Assembly (NCBI RefSeq): GCF_025854375.1
Contig: NZ_CP107575.1
Location: 496,001 to 560,000, forward strand
DNA from: Glutamicibacter sp. JL.03c
GTDB taxonomy: Bacteria > Actinomycetota > Actinomycetes > Actinomycetales > Micrococcaceae
Length of the DNA stretch: 64,000 nt
Reading direction: 5' to 3'
The stretch's first letter is position 1, and each line of letters opens with the position of its first letter. Position numbers and translations under genes: made by a program. The notes under the pieces were generated by a model. It ran no database searches. It saw only the letters and a list, made by a program, of their open reading frames with translations, and had not been told where the DNA came from. Positions 7,793 to 61,544 of this stretch are shown here, piece by piece.

Positions 7793-7827
7793 AAAACCCC
7801 GGAAATCCAAAGGATTTCCGGGGTTTT
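7793..7827. terminator. Bidirectional terminator hairpin
   Basis: Perfect 16-bp stem: AAAACCCCGGAAATCC at 7793-7808 with its complement at 7812-7827 and a 3-base loop. It lies between the phosphodiesterase gene (+) and tRNA-Ser (-), so it can end both transcripts. Confidence 0.9.
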
Positions 7828-7829
7828 CT

Positions 7830-7920: not shown

Positions 7921-8014
7921 AGACCTGATAACTCTATACCGAACCAAAGATGATTACAAAAACGAGAGCCCGATATTCAGTGCGAAGTGGCTCGAAACAC
8001 ACATTTCAGCCAGT

Positions 8015-8491: not shown

Positions 8492-8615
8492 AGTGCTTTT
8501 ACTCTACGTGCTGGCATCCGATTCCTGTTTCTTTGGGCACACCGAACTCGTATAACAGCGGAATTTCGGGCAATTTCCTCGATTCGCCCGCCGGTGTGCT
8601 GATAGATTTCTACTT

Positions 8616-9263: not shown

Positions 9264-9281
9264 CCTGCATTAAGCACCAGC

Positions 9282-9315
9282 CCGAAGGCCGTGGTCTTTA
9301 GACCACGGCCTTCGG
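9282..9315. terminator. Bidirectional terminator overlapping the end of the kinase gene
   Basis: Perfect 15-bp stem (9282-9296 with 9301-9315), loop TTTA. The right arm encodes the last residues (PKAVV) and the stop codon of the minus-strand kinase gene, so the terminator of the convergent pair is partly coding. Confidence 0.88.
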
Positions 9316-12165: not shown

Positions 12166-12951
12166 ATGTCGGCTGGATCCGGATACGTCCACGTTTCAAT
12201 TCGCAACGCGCAGAACCGCGCGGCTGCTGCACAGCGCCAGGCTGCTGGCAACTATGCACCAGCGGGATATCGCCCACTGCGCGCAGTTTCCAGCGTCCAG
12301 GAAACTCGTGAAGCTACGCATCAGCCGGCCAGCACCCCGGTGCAGCCTGCAGGCCAGGCCAGCGCCGACACCTCGGCCCGCGGCTTCGTATTGTATGTAG
12401 GCCTGGATGAAGCTGCCGCCCAGGCGCAGGGAACTTCGCTGGGCAAGCTGGCCACCCAGGTTCGCGCCTTCCTGGCAACCTTGTCGCCACAGGCTCAGAC
12501 CCACGCGGCAGTCGCGTTGGCGCCAACCAGCGCCCAGGGCGAGCCAATTGACGTGGTCCGCCAGGCGCTGGGGGACCCAACTGCTTCGCGCCGCCCACGC
12601 GCAGAAGCCCGCCCGAGCACCCCACGCCCATCCGGCGTGCTGATCGACCTGTCGCGCCGCGAAGTGTACCTGGATGGCGACACCCTGAACCTGACCTTCA
12701 AGGAATTCGAGCTGCTGAACTTCCTCGTGGAAAACGGCACCCGCACCGTAGGCCGCGAAGAACTGCTCGAGAACCTGTGGCGCAATGCCGAAGAAGTGCC
12801 TAACGAGCGCACCATCGACGTGCACATCCGCCGACTGCGCTCCAAGCTGGGCCGCCTGGCCAACACCGTGCGCACCGTACGCGGCCAGGGCTACCGCTTC
12901 TACGAGCACCCGGAAGTTGTCGTTTGGGCAGCACCTGAATACTCGATCTAA
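12166..12951 (+). CDS. Orphan winged-helix transcriptional regulator
   Basis: 261 residues. The C-terminal about 105 residues are an OmpR/PhoB-type DNA-binding domain: LIDLSRREVYLDGDTLNLT, FKEFELLNFLVENGTRTVGR, ERTIDVHIRRLRSKLG, VRTVRGQGYRFYE. The N-terminal 150 residues are not a receiver (no phosphoacceptor aspartate) but an Ala/Gln-rich segment plus a small domain around FVLYVGLDEAAAQAQGTSLG. So it is not controlled by a classic kinase. Start ATG 12166 follows AGAGGAAA. Followed by a strong terminator, so it is monocistronic. Confidence 0.85.
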   Translation: MSAGSGYVHVSIRNAQNRAAAAQRQAAGNYAPAGYRPLRAVSSVQETREATHQPASTPVQPAGQASADTSARGFVLYVGLDEAAAQAQGTSLGKLATQVRAFLATLSPQAQTHAAVALAPTSAQGEPIDVVRQALGDPTASRRPRAEARPSTPRPSGVLIDLSRREVYLDGDTLNLTFKEFELLNFLVENGTRTVGREELLENLWRNAEEVPNERTIDVHIRRLRSKLGRLANTVRTVRGQGYRFYEHPEVVVWAAPEYSI

Positions 12952-12963
12952 TCTGATCACCCT

Positions 12964-13003
12964 GCAGCGGCGGGCAAACCATATTCGGTTTGCCCGCCGC
13001 TGC
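12964..13003. terminator. Terminator after the winged-helix gene
   Basis: Perfect 17-bp stem, GCAGCGGCGGGCAAACC at 12964-12980 with 12987-13003, six-base loop. Confidence 0.85.
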
Positions 13004-13020
13004 TGTCTTAAGCTGGGAAG

Positions 13021-13548
13021 ATGAACACCATTCATTCGCGCAAGCTCATCTTGATGCGCCATGCCAAGGCCGACTATCCCCTCGGCGTTGCCGATCACGA
13101 ACGGCCGCTGGCCGCCCGCGGACACCGCGAGGCGCCCTCGGCCGGCGCATGGCTGGTGGAAAATGACCTGATACCGGACTACATCTTGTGCTCGGATGCC
13201 CTGCGGGCGCGCTCCACCTGCGCGTGGGTGCTATCGGAGCTGGGGGAGAAGGGGCCTACGCCCTATGTGGATTCGCGGATCTATGGCGCGGGCGTCGCGC
13301 AGCTGTGCTCCATCATCAATGAGGTCCCCGAAACCGTAAGCAACCTGCTGGTGATCGGGCACCAGCCGATCCTCCAGGAGCTGGCCCTGAGGCTGGCCTC
13401 GGTCGACTCCGACGAGGAAGCCGTTTACGAGCTGGCGATGAACTATCCGACCCTGGGAACAGCTGTGCTGGAAACCAGCCATCCGTATTCCCACCTGGAT
13501 GCTCGCGACGCTAGGGTGACGCATTTCCTCGCCCCACGGCCCGCATGA
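13021..13548 (+). CDS. sixA: SixA-type phosphohistidine phosphatase
   Basis: 175-residue histidine phosphatase: catalytic RH in LILMRHAKADYPLG (His14), second histidine in LLVIGHQPILQEL, typical of SixA, which removes phosphate from phosphohistidine in phosphorelay or phosphotransfer proteins. DHERPLAARGHREAPSAGAW is the substrate-side signature. No clear target is adjacent; the kinase pair at 9298 is separated by other genes. Confidence 0.88.
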   Translation: MNTIHSRKLILMRHAKADYPLGVADHERPLAARGHREAPSAGAWLVENDLIPDYILCSDALRARSTCAWVLSELGEKGPTPYVDSRIYGAGVAQLCSIINEVPETVSNLLVIGHQPILQELALRLASVDSDEEAVYELAMNYPTLGTAVLETSHPYSHLDARDARVTHFLAPRPA

Positions 13549-13776
13549 GAGAACTCTCACCGAGTTTTTTCTTATGCACTAGTCAAACTGCGTTATTCGG
13601 ATGAGCTGGGGTTATGAGAAGGAGATGAAAACCCTCTCATCGATTGCCCCGGAAGACCTCAGGGGTAGTTCATCTTCGGTTAACCATCCCTCGCTTCACT
13701 GAGAACCGTTGGCGCCACAGCCAACGCCGGAACACCACCAGGTGCCCCGGGTCTTGTGTGAAAGAGGAATGGGACC
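13549..13776 (+). other. Leader region before the DUF1611 gene with several hairpins
   Basis: A short stem TGAGAG/CTCTCA followed by CCGAGTTTTTT near 13547-13573 probably terminates sixA. Downstream, ATGAGA…TCTCAT (about 13614-13641), CCCC…GGGG (about 13647-13665) and GTTGGC…GCCAAC (about 13709-13726) could fold. Ribosome site AAAGAGGAA at 13761. No riboswitch class is recognised. Confidence 0.35.
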
Positions 13777-14907
13777 ATGGCCGTCATCGCAGAATCACTT
13801 CCAGTTCAGAGCACCGCCGCGCGCAGCGAAGTGCAGGAGCATATCGACGCAGCTCGCGCCCGGGCCATCCGGGCCGCGTACACCACCCGTTTTGTCGCCG
13901 CCGAACTGCAGCGCAACCCGCAGGACTTCCAGATCGTGCGCCGGGCGCAGCTGGTTCCGGCACCCGGGGACGTCGTGATCGCCTCGGTGACCGAATTGGG
14001 CAAGCACACCCGGCTGCAGTCCCCGGTATCGCGCCGCCAGCTGCTGTTCGCCGGCCAGGAAATCATGGTCGCCTACGGCCACCGCTACGCGCCAGACCAG
14101 TTCCTCGCCCACGTGCCGGATGCTCTGGGGCCTTGCCAGCTGGTCGCCGGGGGAGGCGTGGCCAGCGAAGTGATCGAACAGCACGCATCCATCGACAAGG
14201 CCACCCAGCTTGAGCCGGTGGGCCTGCTGATGCGCCACGGCAAGGTGGTCAACCTCTCGGACTTCGCGCCGCTGGATATCAACAACGAATCGCCGCAGGC
14301 TGCGCAGCTCGGCGAGATGCGCCCGCCGGTGATCGCGGTGCTGGGAACATCGATGAATTCGGGCAAGTCCACCACCCTGGGCTGCCTGGTCAACGGGCTG
14401 GTCAATGGCGGGCTGAAGGTGGCTGCCGGGAAGGCCACCGGCACCGGCGCGGGCAACGACCCGGACCTGTTCACCGATGCCGGCGCGTTCAGCGTCTGCG
14501 ACTTCACCGACTTCGGCTACCCGACCACTTACCGCCTGGACTATGAGACGGTGCGTTCGCTGCTGGTGGCGATGATCCGCGAACAGAGCGCCACCGGCGC
14601 CGACGCGGTGGTCATCGAGATCGCCGACGGGCTGTTCCAAGGCGAAACCGCGCGGCTGCTGGCCGATCCGATCTTTGCCGAGCACGTCGACCGCGTGCTC
14701 TTCAGCGCCCAGGATGCGCTCGGCGCGCAGGCCGGCGAGCGGATCCTGCTGGAAGCCGGGCTGGACCTCGCGGCCGTCAGCGGCGTGGTGACTGCTTCGC
14801 CGCTGGCTGCGCAGGAGGCCCAAGGCCAGCTGTCCACCCCGGTGATCGGCACCTTCGATCTGTGCCAGGCAGAGGTGGCCGCCAGCCTGCTGCCAGCCAA
14901 GCTGTGA
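13777..14907 (+). CDS. DUF1611-family P-loop protein
   Basis: 376 residues. The DUF1611 family has an N-terminal Rossmann-like part and a C-terminal P-loop domain; here the P-loop VIAVLGTSMNSGKSTTLGCL (residues about 187-206) is intact, followed by KATGTGAGNDPDLFTDAGA and VIEIADGLFQGETARLL. Some members (DgcN) N-acetylate D-glutamate, but no partner epimerase gene is nearby, so the substrate is open. The last base of the stop is the first base of the next ATG (TGATG), which suggests the two products act together. Confidence 0.8.
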   Translation: MAVIAESLPVQSTAARSEVQEHIDAARARAIRAAYTTRFVAAELQRNPQDFQIVRRAQLVPAPGDVVIASVTELGKHTRLQSPVSRRQLLFAGQEIMVAYGHRYAPDQFLAHVPDALGPCQLVAGGGVASEVIEQHASIDKATQLEPVGLLMRHGKVVNLSDFAPLDINNESPQAAQLGEMRPPVIAVLGTSMNSGKSTTLGCLVNGLVNGGLKVAAGKATGTGAGNDPDLFTDAGAFSVCDFTDFGYPTTYRLDYETVRSLLVAMIREQSATGADAVVIEIADGLFQGETARLLADPIFAEHVDRVLFSAQDALGAQAGERILLEAGLDLAAVSGVVTASPLAAQEAQGQLSTPVIGTFDLCQAEVAASLLPAKL

Positions 14908-50654: not shown

Positions 50655-50697
50655 GAGCCCCCTGCCGGATTTGAACCGGCGACCTGCTCTTTACGAG
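50655..50697 (-). other. attL: duplicated 3' half of tRNA-Thr
   Basis: 43 bases identical to 61472-61514, covering the anticodon loop to one base past the tRNA 3' end. Here it is followed by element DNA (ACAGACG), so the tRNA is not functional: it is the displaced original 3' end. Confidence 0.93.
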
Positions 50698-50798
50698 ACA
50701 GACGAAAGCGATATTTGAGTGTTTTTGACTGTCCTGTTAGGCCTAGAAATAAGGCTATTTGTTCCGCTGGTGCAGGGGATTTCAGTTTTTACCCGACA

Positions 50799-50822
50799 GT
50801 GTGTGCACACAATTGCACACAC
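50799..50822. promoter_or_regulatory. Candidate integrase arm-type sites, left arm
   Basis: GTGTGTGCA and TGCACACAC form a 9-6-9 inverted repeat about 100 bases inside attL. ATTGCACACAC recurs once at 61391-61401, 71 bases inside attR. Repeats near both ends are typical of integrase arm binding. The rest of 50698-50998 shows no supported gene. Confidence 0.5.
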
Positions 50823-50998
50823 GTGCGCGGACTAGCTGTGGACTGAAATCTATTTGCCGCCGACTGGCTTCGTGGTCATTGCCGCACCGCCTTTTAATAG
50901 GCGAGGCATGCGTGCAACATCGCGAAGGTTAGGGCGCTGCAGCTCGCTATGGCTATCCGATGCGCTCCGCGCACGCCTAACCACTTCTTACCGAGACG

Positions 50999-51020
50999 AA
51001 AAAACCGCCCGAAGGCGGCC
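50999..51020 (-). terminator. Terminator of the coiled-coil membrane protein gene
   Basis: On the minus strand GGCCGCCTTCGGGCGG is followed by TTTTTT, a classic rho-independent terminator 14 bases after the stop at 51034. Confidence 0.9.
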
Positions 51021-51033
51021 TAATCTGAGTTGG

Positions 51034-51807
51034 CTATTTACCAGTAGAAGCGTTCGCTGAAACAGTAGCAGAATCACCGATAATTGATGTTCGTGCTAGG
51101 TCGTGATTAGCCCCTTCGTAAGCAATTTGTTGCAAAGTAGCCACGTATCTACCTACAGCTTCAAAAAGTTTTCTCTGAAACTCGTAGGTTTCGTTGAGGG
51201 TTTCAGTTAGCTGTTGCTGCGTAAAACCTTCCCAATCATTCTTCGCAATTTTCTTTGCGATGGCTTGGATTTCAGAAGACTTTTCAACGTAATGTTCGTG
51301 CATGACGCTGGTTGCCTTCCGAAGTTCAGGGTCTCCGGCTATGAGATGTGCCGACCACGCGCCCCAAAGGATTGTGACTTCTCCCGTGTCATGCTCGAAT
51401 TCTGTTTGCCCGCCTAAACGCTCGGCATAGTTTGACGAGGAATTGACTAGCCGCATCAGCCCCTCAACATAAACTTGCAACCGGTCTAATTCTCGTTCAC
51501 GAAAGCTAAGATGTTGGGCCGCGTAGATTTGTTTTTCCAGTCCTATACGAGTCTCTTCGAGTTGTTTGATAAGCCCTTCGTCGGCTTGCTTCAAGTTTCT
51601 CTCGGCAATTCCATTCGAGTCTCGGGCTGCCGTCCAAGCTTTACGGGCAAATATCACGGCAAGAAACGCGACTGCCACGCCTATCCAGGCGGCCCATGTC
51701 TGCGAATCTGCAGAATCTACAGGATAGTTGACAGTGCAGAAGAATCGTTCTATTTTGACGGCATTCTCACTAGGTATGCGACAAACAAGGTCGCCTGCGA
51801 TGATCAT
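51034..51807 (-). CDS. Membrane-anchored coiled-coil protein, element cargo, unknown function
   Basis: 257 residues. One N-terminal membrane segment (WAAWIGVAVAFLAVIFARKAW, about 38-58), then long helices with heptad character (DEGLIKQLEETRIGLEKQIY, YVEKSSEIQAIAKKIAK, QRKLFEAVGRYVATLQQIA). No enzyme motif is seen. Opposite in direction to the neighbouring cargo operon, with its own terminator. Lower GC than the chromosome. ATG 51807 may not be the true start; the first 25 residues look unlike a normal N-terminus. Confidence 0.7.
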   Translation of the reverse strand: MIIAGDLVCRIPSENAVKIERFFCTVNYPVDSADSQTWAAWIGVAVAFLAVIFARKAWTAARDSNGIAERNLKQADEGLIKQLEETRIGLEKQIYAAQHLSFRERELDRLQVYVEGLMRLVNSSSNYAERLGGQTEFEHDTGEVTILWGAWSAHLIAGDPELRKATSVMHEHYVEKSSEIQAIAKKIAKNDWEGFTQQQLTETLNETYEFQRKLFEAVGRYVATLQQIAYEGANHDLARTSIIGDSATVSANASTGK

Positions 51808-52038
51808 GACCTGATTCTATGGCGTTTCTCCTATAGCTTCGACTTTGACTAACGCCCCGGGCCCTGCTCGACGGCCCATCGCTGGTGGCGTGCACGGTGA
51901 TGAATTCCGCGTCATCGCGAATGAGTTTGGATTGAGTGAGCGCGGCGCCATAATGTCCGGCGCGTCGGCTAAAGTCTGAATCGTTGCCCCGGCTTGCTAG
52001 GCCCCTGCCGGGGCTACCTGAATCGTTGAGAGGTCACC

Positions 52039-52188
52039 TTGAAGCTAAACAAAGATATTTGCCTAACTTTTGCGCTAGTCGCCGTGGTGTTTTTCGTGCC
52101 CATGCCGCCACTAGCGCGATTGGCTGTTTCGGTCGCGGCCTTAGGCTTGGCAATCAAATCAATTTGGGCAACGAGAGCGAAAAAGTAG
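52039..52188 (+). CDS. Small hydrophobic membrane protein (49 residues)
   Basis: TTG start with GAGAGG seven bases upstream. Sequence reads MKLNKDICLTFALVAVVFFV…PPLARLAVSVAALGLAIKSI and ends ATRAKK: two short membrane helices and a basic tail. A direct repeat CTGAATCGTTG (51976-51986, 52018-52028) flanks a GC-rich hairpin just upstream, and a hairpin follows at 52217. Unknown function; toxin-like small membrane proteins look similar but nothing confirms that. Confidence 0.5.
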   Translation: MKLNKDICLTFALVAVVFFVPMPPLARLAVSVAALGLAIKSIWATRAKK

Positions 52189-52601
52189 CCGCGTAGACAT
52201 GCCCGTTAAACAGAAATTCCCCTAGCCGTCGAAGGCTAAGGGAATCTCAGGGAGAAGCGCGGGCAATTGCCTAGGAGGTATCCTTCTCTCTGCATCTAGA
52301 AAGCCGCTATTTCGCTTCGCCTGGTGCTGGAAGGTCATCGCGTTCGCATCCGCTCTCTTCCATCGCTCGGCACTTACCTTGTTGCAGCCCGCCGTGACGT
52401 TCACACCAAACGGGGTTATTAGCCCCCTGGATTTAACAGCACGAGCTTAACACAGCGCCAGCCGAGCAACGCCACACCGAGACGAAACTAAGCCCTCAAA
52501 TCGACTTACAGCGCCGCCCGCCTGAAGCGTTCGAAATGCCCCACAAATAGCCCAAACGCCTAAAATAGGGCAATTTCCTAAAGGCAATCCGACTTGGCGA
52601 A
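52189..52601. other. 413-base gap in element cargo
   Basis: Hairpin TTCCCCTAGCC / GGCTAAGGGAA (52217-52244) terminates the small membrane gene. The remainder, with the AT-rich run before 52602, should hold the promoter of the three-gene operon. A 60-codon minus frame (52222-52404) lacks a ribosome site and is not accepted. Confidence 0.4.
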
Positions 52602-53180
52602 ATGCTCGGGGGGATATTTTTAGCTATGCCGGAGGGGCTGACCTCGGCCCCTGCCGAACCCCTACCCCGCACCTCGCGCTACCGCCAGGCGACAAACGTC
52701 GGCCTAATGGAGCATACTTATAACATGATTAGTCAGGTGCTCGTCCGTCAGCCTAACGGCGACAGCCCTGCCCTGCGTATCTATCCCGTCGATAGCACAG
52801 CGTCGGAGCTAATGAAGGAAGGCAGGCGCCTCGGGCTCGGCAGCCAGGATCTAATCCGCTTCGCCGGATATGCCAAGAAGCACGGATTTCGAATCACGAG
52901 CTTTTCCGTTTCGGACGCTCGGCTTAACCCGCTTCCTCAAGATGACGCTGAATCAACGTCGGACTCTATGTTGCAGGTCTTCAATGAGCTAGGTGTCAGA
53001 GGATTGAACGCCGCGATGGAATTTGAATTCGACGGCCTCTACATTGTGGGAGTTGAACTGAGATCACCAAAGAACGGATTGACCATCGATTTGCGACGCC
53101 ATGGCTACATCGATACGTCAATACCCAAAGACGCTGAAAATCTCATAGGGTCGGCTTGGCGAGAGCTTCGCTTGGCATGA
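52602..53180 (+). CDS. Cargo operon gene 1, unknown function
   Basis: Up to 192 residues, soluble. The first about 40 residues are Pro/Ala-rich and may be untranslated; ATGs at 52602, 52626, 52707 and 52725 are in frame, the last preceded by GGAG. The core is alpha/beta (LRIYPVDSTASELMKEGRRL, LIRFAGYAKKHGFRITSFSV, FDGLYIVGVELRSPKNGLTI). No known motif. Stop overlaps gene 2 by ATGA. Confidence 0.65.
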   Translation: MLGGIFLAMPEGLTSAPAEPLPRTSRYRQATNVGLMEHTYNMISQVLVRQPNGDSPALRIYPVDSTASELMKEGRRLGLGSQDLIRFAGYAKKHGFRITSFSVSDARLNPLPQDDAESTSDSMLQVFNELGVRGLNAAMEFEFDGLYIVGVELRSPKNGLTIDLRRHGYIDTSIPKDAENLIGSAWRELRLA

Positions 53181-53851
53181 GCGGTAGAGTCAGCACTGCA
53201 TTTTACGATGCTACTAAATTAGCGTGTGGAATATGGGCGGTAACCTCCCTCGACCCATGGATTGCCAGCACAGCTCCTGCGATACCTTTAGTCGCTAAGT
53301 ATCTATTTTCTGCGATTATTCTAGCAATTTTAATTGAAATATTTTTTCAGTTAATATTTGGGCGCCCTAAGATAGTCATCAACTGGGAGCAAAAGGGTGC
53401 GTCTACGCAAATCTACTCACTCGTTGCCCGAGTTTCCCAAACACAAAATGAATGCAAGCCGTTCAGTTTGAACATTTCAACTACGCCGGGCGGGTGGCTA
53501 AGCAACAAAGCACTTTTTCTGCTAATGAAAAACTCACCAACCCTTAGAATTCAGATTAAGGGTGCTGCCATTCAACCAATAGTCGATAATAGCTCTCTCG
53601 AAGGAGAAGAGCCCACTGTCAGAGCTGACTTTGACTCCAAAGGTGTAATAGTAAGTTTAGGCAAACCACCGCACAGCCCCGGAAAATGGCATTGGGCCGA
53701 CGTCCGTTGGACAGTCGACGAGAAATTTGAGGGCACAGATCTTAACGTCGATTGTTTTTTCCAGCACGAAAAGCCTATGGTGAAAAGAGTACTTAATTTG
53801 GTAATCGGCAAATCTACGAACGTCAATTTGTTTTCAGTGGAAAGGGCATGA
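53177..53851 (+). CDS. Cargo operon gene 2, membrane protein of unknown function
   Basis: 224 residues. A weakly hydrophobic stretch near 10-30 and a clear membrane helix about 45-64 (YLFSAIILAILIEIFFQLIF), then a beta-rich soluble domain (IVINWEQKGASTQIYSLVAR, LRIQIKGAAIQPIVD, GKWHWADVRWTVDEK). ATG 53177 overlaps the gene 1 stop. Distinctly AT-rich, unlike the host. No family recognised; the layout suits a membrane effector or anchor. Confidence 0.7.
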   Translation: MSGRVSTAFYDATKLACGIWAVTSLDPWIASTAPAIPLVAKYLFSAIILAILIEIFFQLIFGRPKIVINWEQKGASTQIYSLVARVSQTQNECKPFSLNISTTPGGWLSNKALFLLMKNSPTLRIQIKGAAIQPIVDNSSLEGEEPTVRADFDSKGVIVSLGKPPHSPGKWHWADVRWTVDEKFEGTDLNVDCFFQHEKPMVKRVLNLVIGKSTNVNLFSVERA

Positions 53852-53852
53852 A

Positions 53853-54893
53853 TTGCCAACTCTTAGCCAGGAAGCAGTTCATGTACTGCCCATGCGATCC
53901 AGAACCAGTTCCACTCTCGAAGAAATCCGAGACGCTATGGCTAAGAAGCCACCAAACTCGACCGACCGTGTCGGCGGCTGGGCGAGCATGGAAAACGAGG
54001 GATCAAGCATTGGTCTTCCCGGTGGTTGCCCACTCCCGTCAACTCCAATTATTGAACAAGCAGCCGGTGGGCTTCCAAAGGTTTTAAAAGCGCGGTATTA
54101 CTTCTGGATGACCCCTCCCACTGGGACTTCAAATGTGCCGAATCTCGATGTAAATTCCGTTCGCCGTTTGGCTGCGATTGACGTCATTATCTCCATGGAT
54201 GATTCCAATCACCTCGGCATTCTTTTATCCACTAGAAATCGGCAGCAGTTAAACCGACGCGACGGCGTATTGAAATCACTTGAAGATATTCTCAAAGCAA
54301 ACGATAACACCATCAAGATTGACCGCTCGGATTCCCATTTAGAGCTATGTGATACAGATATCTTCCTATGGCTAACGGTTCAGCGGCGTGACAAACCCCA
54401 GATCGCTCCCGATCTGCGCCTGGACAAGGTGTCTGGCATCAGCGGCAAGGATGCATCAGCGAGAACTGCTGACCTCCGAGCGGGAGTTGATTTCGATCGC
54501 CCGAACTTTTTAACTGCGGTCGCCGAAGCAGACACTCTAGGCCCGATAGATATCTCTTTCGTCCAAGATGAGAATGGCTCACTATGCACCTTTAGAGTGC
54601 AAGTGCACCTAGATGGAGGCTTCGCTATCCGTAAAAGCGACGTCCACATTCCTGGCATAACCGATGACCGGCAGTTGATGGAGACGGCGTCGCTTAGGCT
54701 GGCTTTCGAGCTGATTCCTCGGCTGAATGGACTCTACGTAAGCGATGCCGCCGATTGGGAAACACGGCGGCTCGAAGTCATACAAAGCGCGATGACTGAA
54801 CTTGAATCACGATATAGAGCAGCGCGTGAAGCTCTGCTGGAACGCATAGTGAATTCCCCTGAAGCCATAGATGACGGTGAAAACGCTGACTAA
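53853..54893 (+). CDS. Cargo operon gene 3, unknown function
   Basis: 346 residues, soluble. TTG 53853 is two bases after the gene 2 stop with AAAGGG six bases upstream, so all three genes are translationally linked. Seen: ARYYFWMTPPTGTSNVPNLD, AIDVIISMDDSNHLGILLST, ELCDTDIFLWLTVQRRDKPQ, PIDISFVQDENGSLCTFRVQ and a C-terminal helix LESRYRAAREALLERIV. No known catalytic motif. A 12-bp palindrome GCGAACGTTCGC (54899-54910) lies between it and the convergent HNH gene. Confidence 0.7.
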   Translation: MPTLSQEAVHVLPMRSRTSSTLEEIRDAMAKKPPNSTDRVGGWASMENEGSSIGLPGGCPLPSTPIIEQAAGGLPKVLKARYYFWMTPPTGTSNVPNLDVNSVRRLAAIDVIISMDDSNHLGILLSTRNRQQLNRRDGVLKSLEDILKANDNTIKIDRSDSHLELCDTDIFLWLTVQRRDKPQIAPDLRLDKVSGISGKDASARTADLRAGVDFDRPNFLTAVAEADTLGPIDISFVQDENGSLCTFRVQVHLDGGFAIRKSDVHIPGITDDRQLMETASLRLAFELIPRLNGLYVSDAADWETRRLEVIQSAMTELESRYRAAREALLERIVNSPEAIDDGENAD

Positions 54894-54913
54894 CAAGGGC
54901 GAACGTTCGCGCA

Positions 54914-55315
54914 TTACCATCGACGGCTAGTCCGAAGTGGAGTGCTTGCCATTATTGTTTTGCTCTTCGGCTTTGCTCGGTTGCCTTTGCTTATGTTGCA
55001 TGTTCGGCAACAGACTATGAGGTTTGATTGCTCATGTGTGCCGCCCTTTGAGTATGGGATTACGTGGTCAACCCATGCGCCGTTTGGCGTGAGCTTGTTC
55101 TCGTAGTCCAGGGGGCGTGAGCAATAGGGGGCATTGTGTTTGCCCTCGTTCTTGCGCGAGGTGTAGGGCCATGCGTGCGGCTGGTTGCTATGCGCTTGTG
55201 TCTGTGCGTGATGACGCCATTGGTTGTTCTTTGGTTGTGCGAACGGCCAGCCTCCGTGTGTGAAGGCTGGCCGTTGCGGGGCGGGCTGTTGGTTAGTATG
55301 CGCTCCTGCTGTCAT
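54914..55315 (-). CDS. HNH endonuclease
   Basis: About 133 residues. C-terminal HNH core: NAPYCSRPLDYENKLT, DHVIPYSKGGTHEQSN, LIVCCRTCNISKGNR, with the zinc cysteines and DHV…N…H-type catalytic residues. The N-terminal half is Gln/His-rich. ATG 55315 is inside the end of the upstream gene; an ATG at 55354 is also in frame. HNH proteins of this kind sit beside packaging genes in phages and satellites. Confidence 0.75.
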   Translation of the reverse strand: MTAGAHTNQQPAPQRPAFTHGGWPFAQPKNNQWRHHAQTQAHSNQPHAWPYTSRKNEGKHNAPYCSRPLDYENKLTPNGAWVDHVIPYSKGGTHEQSNLIVCCRTCNISKGNRAKPKSKTIMASTPLRTSRRW

Positions 55316-56258
55316 AGCGCGCTGGTTCGAATGGCGCGGGCTTGTCGGCTCCAAGTTCGGCTTCGGCTTCTGCGTTGAGTTCGGCTAGGGCTTCGGCTTC
55401 GGCCTTGCGGTGTTCGGTGAACTCTTCGCTGTGGGTTGCCTTATGCCAGCTGTTGGCCGTGGGGAACCAAATAATGAGGCCCTGGTCTAGGACTGTTGCC
55501 CACCATTGCAGCGAATCGGTTGCGATTGCTCCCTTGAAGCCGGGTTCAGCCATGTAGGCGGCTTCATCGGTGAAAGCGTCGGGGGTGTAGAGCAGTGCGC
55601 GGAGCTGGCAAGCGTCATGCAGTTTTTTGGCAATGTGCGCGTTGCTTTCGATTAGGGCGGCGTGAGCAAAGTCCTTCGAACTCACAGCGGCATCTAGGTT
55701 CCATTGCTTGCCGGGGTGCTCTTCGATTAGCGCAGTAAGTTCAGCCAGGGCGGGGAAGAACAGCTTTTCGCCGATTTGGTGCGTAATGTTGTCGGCGTTG
55801 TCATTGACGAGCTGCAGGAAGTTTTCGCGGGCTAGCGCTTCGACGCGTTGTTGCAGGCCTCCGATGGTCTGATTCCATGCCACGAATCGCATTAGGTGAT
55901 CTTCGGGATTTTCGCCATTGAGTACCGCGTGAGCGGCAGCGTCGAGCCCTTGCCCGTGAATTTCGGCAACTAGCGAATCAACATGCTTTTTCGCTTCGGT
56001 GAGTGTTGCAATGAGCCCTACGCGCAATTCTTTCGGCGTGTCCAAGTTGTATGTATTGAGCAGTCGCCCGATGTTTCGAAGGCGCTTCGGAAGTCCTCGA
56101 TTGATGCTCGGGATGCTTTTGCTTGCGTCGGTTTTTTCGGTGAGTCGGAAGTTTCCGGGGCGGTATGGCTTCGGCTTTTCGGCTGGTGCTGGGGTGTCGG
56201 TCATGGTGTCCTCGGTGTTTTCGGTGGCGGCGGGGCGGGTGAAGTCTGGGTTAGTCAT
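55293..56258 (-). CDS. Element protein of unknown function (321 residues)
   Basis: Disordered N-terminus (about 50 residues, Pro/Thr/Glu-rich), then a helical body (RLRNIGRLLNTYNLDTPKEL, VGLIATLTEAKKHVDSLVAE, ALARENFLQLVNDNADNITH) and an Ala/Glu-rich tail. ATG 56258 begins MTNPDFTRPAAT; a longer reading to 56342 crosses into the upstream gene. Largest minus-strand gene of the element, just before HNH; a packaging or replication accessory role is conceivable but unsupported. Confidence 0.7.
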   Translation of the reverse strand: MTNPDFTRPAATENTEDTMTDTPAPAEKPKPYRPGNFRLTEKTDASKSIPSINRGLPKRLRNIGRLLNTYNLDTPKELRVGLIATLTEAKKHVDSLVAEIHGQGLDAAAHAVLNGENPEDHLMRFVAWNQTIGGLQQRVEALARENFLQLVNDNADNITHQIGEKLFFPALAELTALIEEHPGKQWNLDAAVSSKDFAHAALIESNAHIAKKLHDACQLRALLYTPDAFTDEAAYMAEPGFKGAIATDSLQWWATVLDQGLIIWFPTANSWHKATHSEEFTEHRKAEAEALAELNAEAEAELGADKPAPFEPARYDSRSAY

Positions 56259-56268
56259 TGGTTGTCTT

Positions 56269-56454
56269 TCAGATAGTGTGGAGGCTGGTTTCAGCACGGG
56301 CGCTGAAGTAGGGGTTGGACGTGCGCGAGAGACGCTGAGCAACTGACACCATTAGGTCAGGCGCTAGGCCGTCGAGTAGTTCGGTGTCTTCATCGCTGAG
56401 GCGGTAGCTTTCGGCAATTCGGTACTTGGTGCTTTCAAGAGTTTCTTCATCCAT
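56269..56454 (-). CDS. Small element protein (61 residues)
   Basis: MDEETLESTKYRIAESYRLS…LDGLAPDLMVSVAQRLS; helical, acidic at the N-terminus. Spaced four bases from the upstream gene and ten from the downstream one, so it belongs to the same minus-strand operon. Function unknown. Confidence 0.6.
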   Translation of the reverse strand: MDEETLESTKYRIAESYRLSDEDTELLDGLAPDLMVSVAQRLSRTSNPYFSARAETSLHTI

Positions 56455-56458
56455 TGAG

Positions 56459-56755
56459 CTATTCGCTTTCTGCTGGGCTGGTGGGCAGTGGTTGCTCTTC
56501 GGTTCCGTCGGCGGCGGTCAGTCGCGGGCGGGTGGCTAAGGCGCTGCGTTGAGCTTGGCGCACTTTTGCCGGGTCTGGAAGATGCTCGGCGGCGTCAACA
56601 ATCCGGTCTGCCAGGGCGAACGCTTCGGGCTTAGTCAGGTGCGCCGCGATGCCTCGCCCGCCGATAAGTGCAATGCCGTCAACTTTCTGTCCTGAGTCCT
56701 CAGTCCAGGCACGCTTGAAGATATGGCCGATGTAAGGGCGGTGGTTTTCCTGCAT
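56459..56755 (-). CDS. Small element protein (98 residues)
   Basis: Begins MQENHRPYIGHIFKRAWTED, then VDGIALIGGRGIAAHLTKPE and AFALADRIVDAAEHL: a small alpha/beta fold with a helical end and a Pro/Glu tail. Its ATG directly follows the upstream stop (TAG-ATG). Function unknown. Confidence 0.65.
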   Translation of the reverse strand: MQENHRPYIGHIFKRAWTEDSGQKVDGIALIGGRGIAAHLTKPEAFALADRIVDAAEHLPDPAKVRQAQRSALATRPRLTAADGTEEQPLPTSPAESE

Positions 56756-56932
56756 CTAGTTGCCTCCTTCGCAATGGTGTTCGAGCATCCGGCGCTCTGC
56801 GGATTCAGCGCGTGCCTTCCAATAGTTCGCGTTTTGTTCCCAGTGCTTGGCGCGTTCCCACAAGACGGCTGCCTGGGTAGGTTCCGGCCAGTGCTCGGAT
56901 TGCAAAGTTTTATCGGTGTAGACGTAGGCCAT
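56756..56932 (-). CDS. Small element protein (58 residues)
   Basis: Begins MAYVYTDKTLQSEHWPEPTQ and ends CEGGN; Trp- and Glu-rich helix in the middle (AVLWERAKHWEQNANYW). Abuts the next gene with no gap and is four bases from the 46-residue frame before it. Function unknown. Confidence 0.55.
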   Translation of the reverse strand: MAYVYTDKTLQSEHWPEPTQAAVLWERAKHWEQNANYWKARAESAERRMLEHHCEGGN

Positions 56933-56936
56933 GACG

Positions 56937-57077
56937 CTAACTTTCTTGTTCGAGGTGGTCGGCGAGTTGCTGGAGGTCGGTGTGAAGCGCTTCGGAGGTT
57001 TGCCCTCCCGCGATATGGTCGGCGCTTGTGCGCAGTAGCTTCACAACCTGCTCCCGGTCGTATGGGTCAATGGTCAA
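56937..57077 (-). CDS. Small element protein (46 residues)
   Basis: TTG start inside the stop of the replication initiator (TTGA overlap); begins MTIDPYDREQVVKLLRTSAD and ends HLEQES. A helical hairpin is likely. Translationally coupled to rep; function unknown. Confidence 0.5.
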   Translation of the reverse strand: MTIDPYDREQVVKLLRTSADHIAGGQTSEALHTDLQQLADHLEQES

Positions 57078-57913
57078 GCTGCATTCCCCTTGCGCTGTCG
57101 TGCGAGGTTCGCGGCTTCGATGACTCGCTGGGTCAGTGAGAGGTCAGGATTCGATTCTTCGACGGCGGCGAGCAACTTAGTGCCGTGGTCTTCGAGGGTT
57201 TGCAGGTGGTCGCGTGCGGCGTCGTATTCGTCTTCGGTGGAGTTTTGAGAATCATCATCATCTTGGGCGGCGGCGAAAATTTCTTTGCGCCCTTCTAAAC
57301 TTGCGTCCAAAAGCCGATTGATTGGTTCATCCCTATATTCCTCATATGGTTCATCCTTATTCATCGGCCCCACCTTTTCGGTGGGGCTATCTCCACCTTT
57401 TCGGTGGAAGTTGCCCCACTTATTCGGTGGCTCTTGCCCCACCTTTTCGGTGGAAACCTGCCCCACCTTTTTAGTGGGGCTAACTGGGCTATCCACAGGC
57501 GCCCAGGACATTCGATAACGCCCCTTCTCGGTACGTATTCGACCTGATGGACGGTATGAAATGCCAGGGTCGAGGCAGAGGGCGTAATCAGCATTCGTAG
57601 AGTTACGAGCGTCACCGGCTGAGACGATAGCCCCCGCCTTCACAAGCGATTTCATGACGCGCCGAACCTTTTCTTCTACGGCCTTCGCTTTGCGCAATTG
57701 TTCGGCAGTGGCGTAGGGGTCTTTCTTGAAGGCGAGCGCGTCGCCTTCGTCTCCGAGGGCGTCGGCGATGGAATCCCAGCCGCCAAAGTAAACCGGCGGT
57801 TCATCTGCGTCTAAGGCAACGTTTGCCATGAAGATAAGGGCCACCAAATCGCGGTGCGTCAATTCGGACTTTGACCAGTTGATAAAGACCTTCGCAACGT
57901 TTGAAGCTCCCAC
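57074..57913 (-). CDS. Replication initiator-like protein with origin repeats in its gene
   Basis: 279 residues. The N-terminal 110 residues look like a helix-turn-helix initiator domain: VFINWSKSELTHRDLVALIF, YFGGWDSIADALGDEGDALA, VRRVMKSLVKAGAIVSAGDA. The middle (about 140-190) encodes the iteron array and is low-complexity at protein level; the C-terminus is a helical domain. Phage O-like initiators also carry their origin in the middle of the gene. GTG 57913 follows GAGGGGGTGA. A match to a named Rep family is not made from sequence alone. Confidence 0.7.
   Translation of the reverse strand: MGASNVAKVFINWSKSELTHRDLVALIFMANVALDADEPPVYFGGWDSIADALGDEGDALAFKKDPYATAEQLRKAKAVEEKVRRVMKSLVKAGAIVSAGDARNSTNADYALCLDPGISYRPSGRIRTEKGRYRMSWAPVDSPVSPTKKVGQVSTEKVGQEPPNKWGNFHRKGGDSPTEKVGPMNKDEPYEEYRDEPINRLLDASLEGRKEIFAAAQDDDDSQNSTEDEYDAARDHLQTLEDHGTKLLAAVEESNPDLSLTQRVIEAANLARQRKGNAA
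57323..57497. repeat. Putative replication origin: iterons, AT-rich repeats, DnaA-like box
   Basis: Five copies of CCACCTTTTCGGTGG (57370, 57393, 57416, 57439, 57463; two variants) spaced 23, 23, 23 and 24 bases. Each copy is itself an inverted repeat. Right flank: CTATCCACA (57489-57497), one base from the DnaA box TTATCCACA. Left flank: AT-rich pair GGTTCATCCCTAT (57324) and GGTTCATCCTTAT (57348), 24 bases apart, as a melting region. Confidence 0.75.
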
Positions 57914-57960
57914 GCGCTCACCCCCTCTTTAGTGCGTCGGTAATCTTGTTTCCTTGGTGT

Positions 57961-58188
57961 TTAGGCGTGCTCTGCTGGCACTAAGCGGTAAAGGGTCAGT
58001 GTTGCCCGTAACCCGGCGACGTGGGCACGCTGAACGGCCTTCTCTGCCGGTGCCAGCGAGAGATAGACGCGGCGGCGATGCCGTGGCGGTACGTGGCCGC
58101 CCTGAAGCTTGGGCTGGCACTCGACCACGACGGCGTAAACACCATCCATGGTCGGCAACTCGGCGGGTTCAGCGGGATTAGTAGACAA
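57961..58188 (-). CDS. Small element protein (75 residues)
   Basis: TTG start with AGGAG eight bases upstream; MSTNPAEPAELPTMDGVYAV, then a basic stretch PPRHRRRVYLSLAPAEKAVQ. Overlaps the upstream 38-residue gene end. A small strand-rich basic protein; function unknown. Confidence 0.55.
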   Translation of the reverse strand: MSTNPAEPAELPTMDGVYAVVVECQPKLQGGHVPPRHRRRVYLSLAPAEKAVQRAHVAGLRATLTLYRLVPAEHA

Positions 58189-58294
58189 TCGGTGCTCCTA
58201 CGGCCAAAGCGATGAATTGGGGAATACTGACCAGGGCGAGGAAAACGCCCATGTAAAAGACGGTGCGAACTGCGATTTGAATCGTCCTATGCAT
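58178..58294 (-). CDS. Tiny membrane protein (38 residues)
   Basis: MHRTIQIAVRTVFYMGVFLA followed by LVSIPQFIALAVGAPIVY: basic start and one long membrane helix. The ATG lies inside the stop region of the upstream gene, so translation is coupled. Phage-like small membrane protein; function unknown. Confidence 0.5.
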   Translation of the reverse strand: MHRTIQIAVRTVFYMGVFLALVSIPQFIALAVGAPIVY

Positions 58295-58901
58295 TGTTTG
58301 CCCCGCCGTTCGGGATGAAGCCGAGCGAGGCGTAGGCATTGAACAATGCTTTGGCATCAATGTCAGTTTCGAGAGCGAAGAGCGAAAGCTGGTGAACCGT
58401 AGTGCGTTCAGACGCGCCCCACTCAATCAAGCGGGCGTGCAATTCGTCTTCGGAGTATTCGGGTTCTTCCAGCTCTGGAGAATTAGCGCCATAACCGAAG
58501 GCGAACATGTGCGCCTGGGCTACTTCGATAGGGTCAGCCGAGTTTTCATCTGCGAACGCTCCGAGGGCTTCAGTTGACATGTTCGCGTTGATGCCGTGGC
58601 GGGTGAACTTGTCGCGCAAAGTAGCGGCAATAAACGCGTTGCGCTCATTTTCGGTAGGCTTAGACATGAAATCACGTTCTTTCTGGGTGTTGGTTTCGTT
58701 GGCCGTAGCGGATTCTTTGGCGAGAGCGCTACGGTCATTTTTCTTAGGTGCAGGGCAGTAGATAAGCTCTGCCGGGTCAACTGGTGTTTCGATGCCCGTT
58801 GCATCCCACAGCACGCGAACAACGGTCTTCCTGGAGCTGGTGACAGTGCCAGCGGTGGACTTGTCGAAAGCGAAAGCTACACGGTTGCCTATACGGAACA
58901 T
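58287..58901 (-). CDS. Element protein of unknown function (204 residues)
   Basis: N-terminal small beta barrel (MFRIGNRVAFAFDKSTAGTV…VVRVLWDATGIETPV, KOW/Tudor-like), linker, then a helical acidic domain (ERNAFIAATLRDKFTRHGIN, HARLIEWGASERTTVHQLSL). ATG 58901 has AGAGAGG upstream and overlaps the end of the 78-residue gene. Function unknown. Confidence 0.65.
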   Translation of the reverse strand: MFRIGNRVAFAFDKSTAGTVTSSRKTVVRVLWDATGIETPVDPAELIYCPAPKKNDRSALAKESATANETNTQKERDFMSKPTENERNAFIAATLRDKFTRHGINANMSTEALGAFADENSADPIEVAQAHMFAFGYGANSPELEEPEYSEDELHARLIEWGASERTTVHQLSLFALETDIDAKALFNAYASLGFIPNGGANNA

Positions 58902-59125
58902 TTGTTAGGCCTCTCTTTCATCTTTGATTTGCGCTCAGTCGCTTCAAGGTTCTTTACTGCTTCTCGTGCCGTGGGGTCTGAGATGATGCCGTGGATTCGA
59001 ACTGCGTCGTAACCAACGTTTTCTTCAAGCCAGATCATCTTTTTTGCAACCGCCTTGGCCTGCCCTGCTGAATAGTGGGGATTCTTGGCCATGAGTTCGC
59101 GTTGCAATTCCCGTTGTGTGGGCAT
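58889..59125 (-). CDS. Small element protein (78 residues)
   Basis: MPTQRELQRELMAKNPHYSA…AVAKKMIWLEENVGYDAV, basic and helical, possibly DNA-binding. Good AGGAG site before ATG 59125. Second gene after the excisionase; function unknown. Confidence 0.6.
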   Translation of the reverse strand: MPTQRELQRELMAKNPHYSAGQAKAVAKKMIWLEENVGYDAVRIHGIISDPTAREAVKNLEATERKSKMKERPNKCSV

Positions 59126-59193
59126 AACAAAGTTGCTCCTGTCTTCGTCTCCGGTATAGAGAGCGGTTGCGCTGCTGGTGTTGCCTAAATGCC

Positions 59194-59385
59194 CTAGCTG
59201 GCTTCGTGGTGCTGTTCGCCATTCACGTAGCCATCGAGGACTCGGCGACTAACGAGAAAGCGCGAATCGATCTTCAGTACGCCGGGCAGTTCTCCGCTGC
59301 GTGCCCATTCGTAGGCTTTAGCCTTGCCGATGCCGAGAATGGTCGCGGCCTGGGGCACTGAGTAAGTCTTGCGTTCGGTGATCAT
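59194..59385 (-). CDS. xis: Excisionase (helix-turn-helix Xis)
   Basis: 63 residues: MITERKTYSVPQAATILGIG, KAKAYEWARSGELPGVLKID, SRFLVSRRVLDGYV, a MerR/Xis-type winged helix that directs the integrase towards excision. First gene of the leftward operon, divergent from the repressor. GGGGGA precedes the ATG. Confidence 0.87.
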   Translation of the reverse strand: MITERKTYSVPQAATILGIGKAKAYEWARSGELPGVLKIDSRFLVSRRVLDGYVNGEQHHEAS

Positions 59386-59509
59386 GATTTCCCCCTGCTG
59401 TTCTAAAAAAGATTAGCTGTTCCAAAACAGAACACCTTCAGCGTACCGCACAGATATCAAATGTGGCAAGATAGGACACGAGAGAGCTTTTGGAACGACT
59501 GACCGATGG
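59386..59509. promoter_or_regulatory. Divergent promoter/operator region of the element switch
   Basis: 124 bases between xis and the repressor gene. GTTC(C/T)AAAA-type half sites occur at 59400 and 59419 (direct, 19 apart) and inverted at 59488 (TTTTGGAAC); TGTTC…GAACA also pairs at 59418-59434. These are the likely repressor operators. Confidence 0.55.
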
Positions 59510-60151
59510 ATGGAACGCATGGCGAAGACCCCGAGAAATCACGAGAACGCGGAGGCTCAAGCCTCCCGTGTGGTCGCTGAGATGCGACAGGCTAGGAGTT
59601 GGTCATATGGTGATCTATCCAAACGAATGCTTGAAGTCGCCGGTTGCAATATTGACCGCAGTTCACTGCAAAAAATTGAGAAGGGCACACCGCCGCGAAA
59701 AATTAGCCTGAATGAGTTGGTGGCCTTCTCGAAAGTTTTCGAAGCGCCGTTATCAGCATTCCTAGGTGTTGATTTTGACGCAGAGAACGAACTTACCTGG
59801 AGTTCAATCGATCATGCCGAGCGCCTTGCTAGCGTGATGCTGCGCGCCCGTGAAGAATACAAGGCCGTTATTGAACCATTGCAAACTCTTGCCGACAATG
59901 ACCGAGCGTTTCATGATCGAATAAGTGAGCGATACCGGGAAAACCTGAAAGAAATTCGAGACAGGCAATCACCTGGTGAATACTCGAACGGCACAAAGAT
60001 GCTGTTGCCGATTGAAACGGTCGTTGCATCAAGCCCACTACTAACGACGGCCCTAGATATCGTTCGCGGCGAACCGATGGGGCCGGAATATTTGCAGCTC
60101 GATTTTTCTGGCGACGATTTAAATGAGGGGGATGGAAATAATGGCGAATGA
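59510..60151 (+). CDS. XRE-family repressor of the element
   Basis: 213 residues. N-terminal Cro/CI-type helix-turn-helix: SWSYGDLSKRMLEVAG, RSSLQKIEKGTPPRKISLNE, AFSKVFEAPLSAFLG. The C-terminus (SSIDHAERLASVMLRAREEY) is helical and lacks a LexA-type Ser-Lys peptidase, so induction is probably by an antirepressor or helper phage protein rather than RecA. ATG 59510 or 59519. The 3' end overlaps the integrase start, so the two are co-expressed. Confidence 0.85.
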   Translation: MERMAKTPRNHENAEAQASRVVAEMRQARSWSYGDLSKRMLEVAGCNIDRSSLQKIEKGTPPRKISLNELVAFSKVFEAPLSAFLGVDFDAENELTWSSIDHAERLASVMLRAREEYKAVIEPLQTLADNDRAFHDRISERYRENLKEIRDRQSPGEYSNGTKMLLPIETVVASSPLLTTALDIVRGEPMGPEYLQLDFSGDDLNEGDGNNGE

Positions 60152-61538
60152 TATTTACCGGCGCTGTGGTTGCCGCAAGCCGGACGGCACGCAATACAAG
60201 ACGCTTCCGGTGCGCCCTACTGCTGATGAACGCGCCGAGTCATGCCCCTGGATGACTGACCCTAAGCATGGTTCCTGGGCGTTCTACATCTCGGCGGGCA
60301 AAGACGCCAAGACTGGCAAGCGCAAGCAACATCGAAAGTCGGGTTTTCCTACGGAGAAGGCGGCGCGAGTAGCCCGTAACAAAGTCGCTGCAACTATCGA
60401 CAACGGCACGTATACAGCGCCTAATAAAATCACTGTTGAGCAGTTCCTGGCCGAGTGGCTACCGCGCCGGGAGCGTACCGGCAAGGGCTTGAAACCGACA
60501 ACGGTAAGCAACTATCGCCGGTATATCGAAAATGACATTACCGGCTCAATGGTCGGCGTTATGAAATTGAGTGAGCTACGCCGTGACCACGTTCAGCGCT
60601 ATGTTGACCAGCTCATGAATGACGGCCGAGGCGCGGAAACTATTCATCGAATCGTCGCCGTACTAAAAACCGCGTTCAAGTATGCTGTGCGAGATGGGTA
60701 CCTGGGCGCGAATGTAGCCCAAGACATTGACCTTCCCACGGTGGAACGCAAAGCAATCACGGTATGGGAAATCAAAGACTTGCAAGCGTTCTTTGCCGAG
60801 GCCGCTAAGCATCGACTCGGTGAGGTGTTTCAGCTAATCGCCCGCACCGGGTTACGCAGAGGCGAAGCGTTGGGCTTGCGCTGGGAAGATGTTGATTTCG
60901 TAGAAGCAAAGCTGAATATCCGACACTCAAGGGTGGAAGTTCGCGGCGTGGCCGTCGAGCAAGAGAGCGTCAAAACTGATGCCTCTAAAGCCTCGGTTGA
61001 ACTAGACCCCGCTGCAGTTGACGCGCTGATGCGCTGGAAGATCAGCCAGGACGCCGAACGCGAGATGTACGGCGAACTTTGGGAAGGCGTAGGGCACGTT
61101 TTCACTATGCCGGACGGTTCGCCCTTGAATCCCTCCTACGTCACCAAATTGTTTACCAAGCTCCGCAAGGCCGCTGGAGCTCCTGCGCTCACGTTGCACG
61201 GGCTACGGCACGAGCACGCGGCACTCATGGCGCAAGCGGGCATTGATGTAATGATCATTTCGAAGCGCCTGCGTCATTCGAATATCGCCGTTACGAGTAA
61301 CTTCTATGGCCACTTGATGCCGAACGTCTCCCGTAACGCGGCGTCGAAGGTGTCGCAATTGATCGACGCTGAAAAATCGGATGTTCACACATTGCACACA
61401 CAAAGCGAGTTTTTGGGCACGAAAAACGCCCCTGCCAAAATCAATAATGACTCTGACAAGGGCGTTAGGCCGAGCCCCCTGCCGGATTTGAACCGGCGAC
61501 CTGCTCTTTACGAGGGAGCTGCTCTACCCCTGAGCTAA
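60141..61538 (+). CDS. int: Tyrosine site-specific integrase
   Basis: 465 residues. N-terminal arm-binding domain (GSWAFYISAGKDAKTGKRKQ), core-binding domain (KITVEQFLAEWLPR), catalytic domain with Arg (ARTGLRRGEALGL, about 237), HGLRHEH (about 352-358), RLRHSN and tyrosine in SNFYGH (about 388). ATG 60141 has GAGGGGG nine bases upstream. The 3' end runs through attR into the tRNA gene: the last residues GAALPLS are encoded by host DNA. Confidence 0.93.
   Translation: MANDIYRRCGCRKPDGTQYKTLPVRPTADERAESCPWMTDPKHGSWAFYISAGKDAKTGKRKQHRKSGFPTEKAARVARNKVAATIDNGTYTAPNKITVEQFLAEWLPRRERTGKGLKPTTVSNYRRYIENDITGSMVGVMKLSELRRDHVQRYVDQLMNDGRGAETIHRIVAVLKTAFKYAVRDGYLGANVAQDIDLPTVERKAITVWEIKDLQAFFAEAAKHRLGEVFQLIARTGLRRGEALGLRWEDVDFVEAKLNIRHSRVEVRGVAVEQESVKTDASKASVELDPAAVDALMRWKISQDAEREMYGELWEGVGHVFTMPDGSPLNPSYVTKLFTKLRKAAGAPALTLHGLRHEHAALMAQAGIDVMIISKRLRHSNIAVTSNFYGHLMPNVSRNAASKVSQLIDAEKSDVHTLHTQSEFLGTKNAPAKINNDSDKGVRPSPLPDLNRRPALYEGAALPLS
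61472..61514 (-). other. attR core inside the intact tRNA-Thr
   Basis: 43-bp copy identical to attL. Here the element-borne 3' half is joined to the chromosomal 5' half, so the tRNA is rebuilt. Confidence 0.93.
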
Positions 61539-61544
61539 GGAGGC
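61473..61544 (-). tRNA. tRNA-Thr (anticodon CGT), attachment site
   Basis: 72-nt tRNA: acceptor GCCTCCT/AGGGGGC (one G-U), discriminator T, anticodon loop CTCGTAA (CGT), T-arm GCCGGTTCAAATCCGGC. The pair 31-39 at the base of the anticodon stem is C-A, unpaired. CCA not encoded. Confidence 0.93.

Follow-up and report, generated by a model that had tools for sequence, protein, structure and literature searches.

A 10.8-kb element at a tRNA-Thr gene of Glutamicibacter sp. JL.03c is very probably a cos-type satellite of Zucker-like phages

Glutamicibacter sp. JL.03c carries a 10.8-kb element integrated at a tRNA-Thr gene, which we examined within a 64,000-nt stretch of its genome (GCF_025854375.1, NZ_CP107575.1, positions 496,001-560,000, forward strand; hereafter the window, whose coordinates are used throughout). 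An earlier note on this DNA had interpreted the element as an actinobacterial phage satellite, and our analysis supports that view: the element carries a putative packaging site of the Zucker type, which the note had missed, and a phage-type HNH endonuclease, and it has mobile relatives, 6-12 kb in size, with att repeats of their own. We consider it very probably a cos-type phage satellite, one that from its sequence probably travels inside the particles of a Zucker-like phage.

The packaging site was first read as a motif downstream of the HNH gene or of p349, a conserved all-helical protein, in relatives of the element, and equals the joined genome ends (cos) of Arthrobacter phage Zucker, from which the window 27-mer differs by a single mismatch. 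BLAST aligned the window site to Zucker bases 1-23, the left end of that record, at 95.7% identity (E = 1, a value to be expected when 23 bases are sought in 2.3 Gb; six other records were matched elsewhere). Allowing up to three mismatches, the 27-mer has its sole match in the 3.59-Mb genome at this site, with none for the reversed control among the matches listed, and it occurs in 2 of 18 genomes of the genus and 5 of 395 of the family. These five family matches fall in the window and L031, both p349 elements, in a Zucker-like prophage region (L085), and in two further loci, L086 and L087; the L086 element (3634-9974) encodes a serine recombinase and gave no BLAST match to p349. We also built a position weight matrix (PWM) from ten phage sites, eight of them distinct, leaving out 8 of 17 contigs (L065, L076 and six without terminase genes). 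The window site scored 38.9, compared with 5.2 for the next best in the element and 6.5 for the best in window 1-50600, the core of the matrix being inflated because the training viral contigs were chosen by an exact 16-mer.

In the Zucker genome TerS and TerL are found at the left end, and no gene follows HNH, which lies 111 bases from the right end. Among viral contigs the 16-mer core occurs at 17 loci; in the stretch examined, Zucker-like TerS, TerL or portal accompanies it at 11 of these and is missing at six, and the order HNH-cos-TerS is found in six contigs (L070, L073, L074, L075, L077 and L079), while the prophage-like family region L085 reads HNH-cos-gp1-TerS-TerL-portal. The core lies within 40 bases of the stretch start, probably a contig end, in L064, L066, L067 and L076, of which L067 has no terminase match. 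Runs rich in G precede the phage cos sites and likewise several satellite sites. Eight elements carry p349 (the window and L029-L035), and in five of them (the window, L030, L031, L032 and L035) cos lies downstream of p349 and on its strand. The PWM scored 32.7 in L031, 18.8 in L032 and 14.0 in L035; the L030 site carries an indel, is missed by the PWM, and was read by eye and with a 23-mer (20/23) written after several sites had been seen. No such cos was found in the eleven Rep-bearing loci lacking p349 (L036-L046; best PWM score 9.6) or in the Rep-bearing viral contig L047 (1.2).

The HNH protein is of the type encoded beside cos in Zucker-like phages. It matches Zucker gp98, top-ranked among 291 phage records with an HNH match, at 51% over residues 71-146, and the HNH of viral contig L074, which is next to cos-TerS-TerL, at 55% over residues 61-146; at the DNA level the HNH region aligned a 51-base piece within the HNH gene of Cutibacterium phages (E 0.02). 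The PHROG scan of HNH covers the best 25 of 40 rows. p349, whose conserved core spans about residues 84-330, was detected by sequence in 9 of 245 family genomes (one weakly, 7.2e-4) and by profile in 8 of 395, and also in 5 of 18 genomes of the genus, the host genome being counted in each; the relatives found through p349 include Glutamicibacter ardleyensis, G. soli and G. protophormiae. Searches for its function returned no usable match in Pfam, PHROGs, PADLOC, NCBIfam, PDB sequences or two fold libraries. From its position upstream of HNH and/or cos in six of the eight elements, we guess that p349 probably acts in packaging or assembly. As a sub-case of the satellite interpretation, the element might also remodel the helper head, with p349 as size factor. 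We think this unlikely: the conservation, all-helical model and position of p349 would suit such a role, whereas it has no head-family match, PDB and BFVD yield no fold match at E ≤ 0.001, and its model reaches a pLDDT (predicted local distance difference test) of only 67.

The borders and gene order (Table 1) agree with what the earlier note had described: the att cores are identical, the right copy lies in tRNA-Thr, and the integrase and repressor on one strand, the divergent excisionase, the run of small genes, the HNH gene and the far-side cargo are all placed as it had claimed. The exact repeats define a circle of 10,817 bp, present once in the single 3.59-Mb contig of its genome, with a GC content of 0.47-0.58 in 1-kb windows compared with 0.58-0.64 in the flanks. 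At the same tRNA-Thr site, 4 of the 18 genus genomes are clearly empty, the joined flanks aligning in full, over 783/783 bases, with G246 (95%) and G210 (85%), and over their bases 1-779 with G181 (79%) and G157 (77%); G230 holds the related element L030 and the host genome the window element. In G245 and G220 the two flanks are about 1.4 kb apart, so another insert may be present there. Because the last integrase codons (61472-61538) run through attR, the protein ends differently in the two forms, as PALYEGAALPLS when integrated and as what would read PALYETDESDI in the circle, where that of L030 would read PALYETKDDDI.

Table 1. Features of the element in window coordinates, with counterparts in related elements (locus coordinates) below.
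Feature	Position	Strand	Remarks
attL core, 43 bp	50655-50697		exact copy of 61472-61514
Cargo gene	51034-51807	-	no Pfam, PADLOC or NCBIfam match; PHROG at chance level, best E 0.04
Conserved non-coding motif, ~100 nt, covarying 14-pair hairpin	~52298-52413	-	in 5/8 p349 elements
cos packaging site, Zucker-like phage type	52604-52633	-	sequence match to joined genome ends of Arthrobacter phage Zucker
Cargo gene	52725-53180	+	no match in Pfam and PHROGs (with longer ORF), PADLOC or NCBIfam
Cargo gene	53156-53851	+	no match in Pfam, PHROGs, PADLOC or NCBIfam
Cargo gene	54135-54893	+	longest ORF starts 53853; no Pfam, PADLOC or NCBIfam match; one chance-level PHROG row, E 0.25
HNH endonuclease, type beside cos in Zucker-like phages	54914-55354	-	PF01844 8.9e-11; start uncertain
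p349, conserved all-helical protein	55293-56342	-	
Conserved 61-aa protein	56269-56454	-	present in L029, L030
Conserved 98-aa protein	56459-56755	-	L029-L032 (tblastn), L034 (blastp)
Conserved 58-aa protein	56756-56932	-	present in L029-L032
Replication initiator Rep, winged-helix	57074-57913	-	RepA_N-like by model
In-gene repeats, probable origin	57367-57502		5 copies, spacing 23-24 bp, 60-100% alike
Conserved 75-aa protein	57961-58188	-	91% to L029, 82% to L030; dN 0.06-0.12, dS 0.6-1.3
Protein common to L029, L030, L032	58287-58901	-	tblastn
Small protein, function not assigned	58889-59125	-	open reading frame (ORF); no Pfam match
Excisionase, first gene of divergent operon	59194-59385	-	HTH_17 1e-10; phrog_66 8.2e-6
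Cro/CI-type repressor	59510-60151	+	HTH_3 E 1.3e-4, slightly below Pfam cut-off
Tyrosine integrase	60123-61538	+	phrog_1 E 1.6e-76; Pfam Phage_integrase 3.1e-22
attR core, 43 bp	61472-61514		within tRNA-Thr(CGT), its 3' part
tRNA-Thr(CGT), integration target	61472-61544	-	relatives with empty site
Non-coding motif, L030	9270-9377	-	
Non-coding motif, L031	10438-10555		
Non-coding motif, L032	10541-10658		
Non-coding motif, L033	11035-11150		
Bounding repeats, L029			18 bp
Bounding repeats, L030			50 bp, same tRNA-Thr
Bounding repeats, L032			24 bp, tRNA-Leu
Bounding repeats, L042			38 bp, tRNA-Lys
Bounding repeats, L043			53 bp, tRNA-Thr
Bounding repeats, L046			16-17 bp, tRNA-Ser

The core of the element looks maintained, since the nonsynonymous rate (dN) is well below the synonymous rate (dS) in integrase (dN/dS 0.08/1.58) and excisionase (0.12/1.10) between the window and L030 and in p349 against L029 (0.24/0.81) and L030 (0.29/1.03). 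The 75-aa protein gave 0.06/0.60, and the pattern is weaker for p349 between L034 and L035 (0.47/0.77) and for HNH between the window and L032 (0.59/1.70). These data bear on whether the element could instead be a decayed prophage, stripped of head, tail and lysis genes and left with integrase, HNH and cos. The phage-type HNH and cos, an integrase with phage-type relatives in 2,494 phage records (each best place below 60% identity), a GC content below that of the flanks and the Rep relative encoded by viral contig L047 would all fit such an origin. We nevertheless judge it very unlikely, given that related elements, located at several sites and with att repeats of their own, show the compact gene order again, that the core genes look constrained, that tblastn matched neither Rep nor p349 in 50,697 phage records, and that no p349 was confirmed in viral contigs. 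The L047 relative was found with a Rep alignment; scans of viral contigs with Rep alone, p349 alone or a p349 alignment confirmed none.

As the earlier note had stated, the element shows no sign of structural phage, relaxase or FtsK genes: no structural, lysis, terminase, relaxase or FtsK/TraB family is among the Pfam and PHROGs matches listed for it, with the proviso that remote homologs could be missed. The same scans gave no match to genes of capsid-forming phage-inducible chromosomal islands (cf-PICIs), namely their own capsid, portal and TerS/TerL. The order characteristic of PICIs is present, with integrase and repressor divergent from excisionase, rep and origin and cargo towards the far end, so that the element appears PICI-like in layout and logic; we do not claim that it is a PICI by descent. 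We did not file it as a classical PICI because no PICI-specific gene (primase-type Rep, Cpm/Ccm, Ppi or TerS) was recognised in the window by Pfam, PHROGs or NCBIfam.

The modelled initiator (pLDDT 71) matched the PDB folds 4pql (N-terminal domain of a DNA binding protein), 5kbj (a Rep-DNA complex) and 4pt7 (an initiator) at ranks 1, 2 and 4 (prob 0.90-0.97, E 0.04-0.13), with Fur and MukE-MukF chains occupying most of the next ranks. We take these three to be RepA_N proteins; the window Rep has no Pfam match to RepA_N. Plasmids of the RepA_N type carry their origin inside the rep gene, and 11 of the 14 rep genes examined (of 16) contain a 9-mer recurring at least three times between about nt 360 and nt 590, with spacings mostly of 21-25 nt, in a like position and with a different sequence in most relatives, a count made with no shuffled control for the relatives. 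The three rep genes with no recurring 9-mer are those of L035, L038 and L045. The earlier note had proposed an initiator with its own origin, of which the rep gene and the repeats within it were confirmed and the origin itself is only probable. In the family, 15 of 245 genomes have a Rep match, the host included and one of them weak (9.4e-4), and the Rep N-terminus differs in L029 and L030.

These features raise the alternative of an integrative plasmid-like or conjugative element of the AICE (actinomycete integrative and conjugative element) type, moving by cell contact and carrying cos by chance. Its initiator fold, nearest to plasmid initiators and paired with in-gene repeats, and a tRNA site combined with an integrase-excisionase-rep layout do resemble such elements. 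Yet the Pfam and PHROGs rows listed hold no TraB/FtsK or relaxase family, Rep and p349 are without a match in 72,556 plasmid records, and cos recurs in place in five of eight p349 elements, which together make this origin very unlikely.

Several observations weigh against a cos-type satellite. The host genome holds no convincing prophage terminase: phrog_2, which we take to be the terminase large subunit, gave two weak local matches (E 1.4e-4 and 5.9e-4, in frames of 576 and 1163 aa), and phrog_9, presumably the portal, gave none, so the helper would have to come from outside. We infer the helper, the induction and the particle from sequence alone. No capsid-size gene was recognised, and Zucker, at 53,491 bp, is about five times as long as the 10.8-kb element. 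The window HNH is without the first Cys of its CxxC, and the HNH domain was not found in L030, where the match is confined to residues 2-38. A convincing cos is missing from three of the eight p349 elements (best PWM scores of 4.1 in L029, 8.2 in L033 and 7.8 in L034), L029 having transposase-like ORFs after p349 as judged by eye, and only two of the five p349-element sites are within three mismatches of the 27-mer. The window cos lies 2.3 kb beyond HNH with three opposite-strand cargo genes between, compared with an HNH-cos gap of about 90-126 bp in Zucker, L070, L073, L074, L077, L079 and L085 and of 602 in L075, and the L086 cos is on the strand opposite its genes.

For the satellite that we favour, relief of the repressor would allow integrase and excisionase to excise the 10.8-kb circle from tRNA-Thr. 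The RepA_N-like initiator would then fire an origin within its own gene, giving many copies or multimers. A Zucker-like helper terminase, aided by the helper-type HNH, could cut the copied cos, the cos sequence and the HNH kinship being what is seen of this step, and satellite DNA would be packaged into helper particles.

The cargo genes were also tried as known defence systems, and no PADLOC match was obtained in the six window genes tested. A listed ORF at 52602-53180 would overlap cos, and the gene caller makes a start at 52725 likelier. The element also holds a conserved non-coding motif, likewise missed by the note, whose window copy has no Rfam match and whose folding energy is no better than that of shuffles (z 0.82, 0.77, -0.07 and -0.44). 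Its 14-pair hairpin pairs in 92.4% of cells versus 29-46% in slid versions, and the observed value was reached by 1/500 shuffles for the covariation score, 17/500 for pairs changed on both sides and 48/500 for further pair types; the covariation support is weak because the structure was derived from the same five rows, two of them near-identical. The seed pattern occurs in 6 of 197 family genomes, three of the occurrences being known p349 elements and three other sequences, and at least 120 viral-contig stretches match it, with the longer motif in none of the 120 listed.

Besides the host, 19 genomes have a Rep or p349 match; we took the neighbourhoods of the related loci from 18 of them, leaving out the weak p349 match in G088. 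Possible bounding repeats were found in six of the 18, and no clear pair was seen in the other 12 within the stretch examined. L029-L032 share the small-gene run and p349 with the window, and L031, L033 and L086 have serine recombinases by eye. Individual relatives carry further genes. In L034 a TerS gene (10654-10998, +; phrog_1496, 6.7e-16) directly follows p349-HNH; L035 encodes Mtd_N, the major tropism determinant N-terminal domain (7301-7648, -; 1.1e-15), about 0.55 kb past cos; and L032, the element of G. protophormiae, encodes the candidate defence protein HEC-09 close to its far end (12403-12723, +; PADLOC 8.4e-28). The Rep-sharing element L038 has a tail-chaperone match and a minor-head/tail-completion match (2333-6867, -), with counterparts of these tail-type genes in Rep-sharing L043 (12495-16538, +). 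A large protein occupies the tape-measure position in L038, L043 and L047, of which only that of L047 has a solid match (11478-14483, +; PhageMin_Tail 2e-16, minor-tail/tape-measure).

The closest published parallels are the cos-type Staphylococcus aureus pathogenicity islands (SaPIs) SaPIbov4 and SaPIbov5, Gram-positive PICIs that resemble the element in the order of regulatory, replication and cargo blocks and in a helper-like cos. Unlike them, the element has its own phage-type HNH, an actinobacterial host and an initiator that looks RepA_N-like rather than primase-type; SaPI Ccm, Ppi and PtiM were unrecognised here by family scans, with no one-by-one search. SaPIbov5 cut to 10.9 kb loses its small-capsid band and is seemingly packed as concatemers in large heads (PMC5052747). 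The Gram-negative PICI EcCICFT073 has cos sites that serve lambda and phi80, and it enters full-size heads (PMC6092414); it carries two cos sites versus one here, shares no recognised genes with the element and belongs to another host phylum. The phage-inducible chromosomal minimalist islands (PICMIs) are small, lack capsid-remodelling genes and are packaged as a concatemer (PMC10803314); they sit next to fis in Vibrionaceae (PICMI115, 6.1 kb), whereas the element is at tRNA-Thr. When a satellite does not remodel the head, its DNA is packed as multimers or goes into full-size heads (PMC10803314, PMC6092414), and by analogy the element may be packed likewise. Actinobacterial satellites have been published as Mycobacterium candidate PICIs and Streptomyces MulchRoom/MiniFlayer, some at tRNA genes (PMC10654092, PMC10690885); the former are defined by integrase and capsid gene and the latter have capsid and terminase genes, whereas no capsid or terminase gene was recognised here. 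Small actinobacterial prophage elements have also been proposed as satellites (PMC10023795). No Arthrobacter or Glutamicibacter satellite appeared in titles or abstract openings among the matches listed from the open literature, most subscription papers and bioRxiv being outside that scope.

A bolder and distinctly tentative proposal, which we hold as doubtful, is that the element represents a distinct actinobacterial lineage of cos satellites parasitising Zucker-like phages, with a cassette of p349, helper-type HNH, copied cos and a small structured RNA, some relatives being extended by captured TerS, by a tropism-determinant domain or, among Rep-sharing cousins, by tail-chaperone and tape-measure-like genes that would refit the stolen particle. 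Satellites that lack capsid genes and have no marker gene in common with known PICIs are hard to spot in actinobacteria. Once a cos is seen to match the sequenced ends of a phage, what had been a guess about a small island becomes a helper group that can be named and tested, and cos together with p349/HNH provides a search key for a family of elements with variable cargo.

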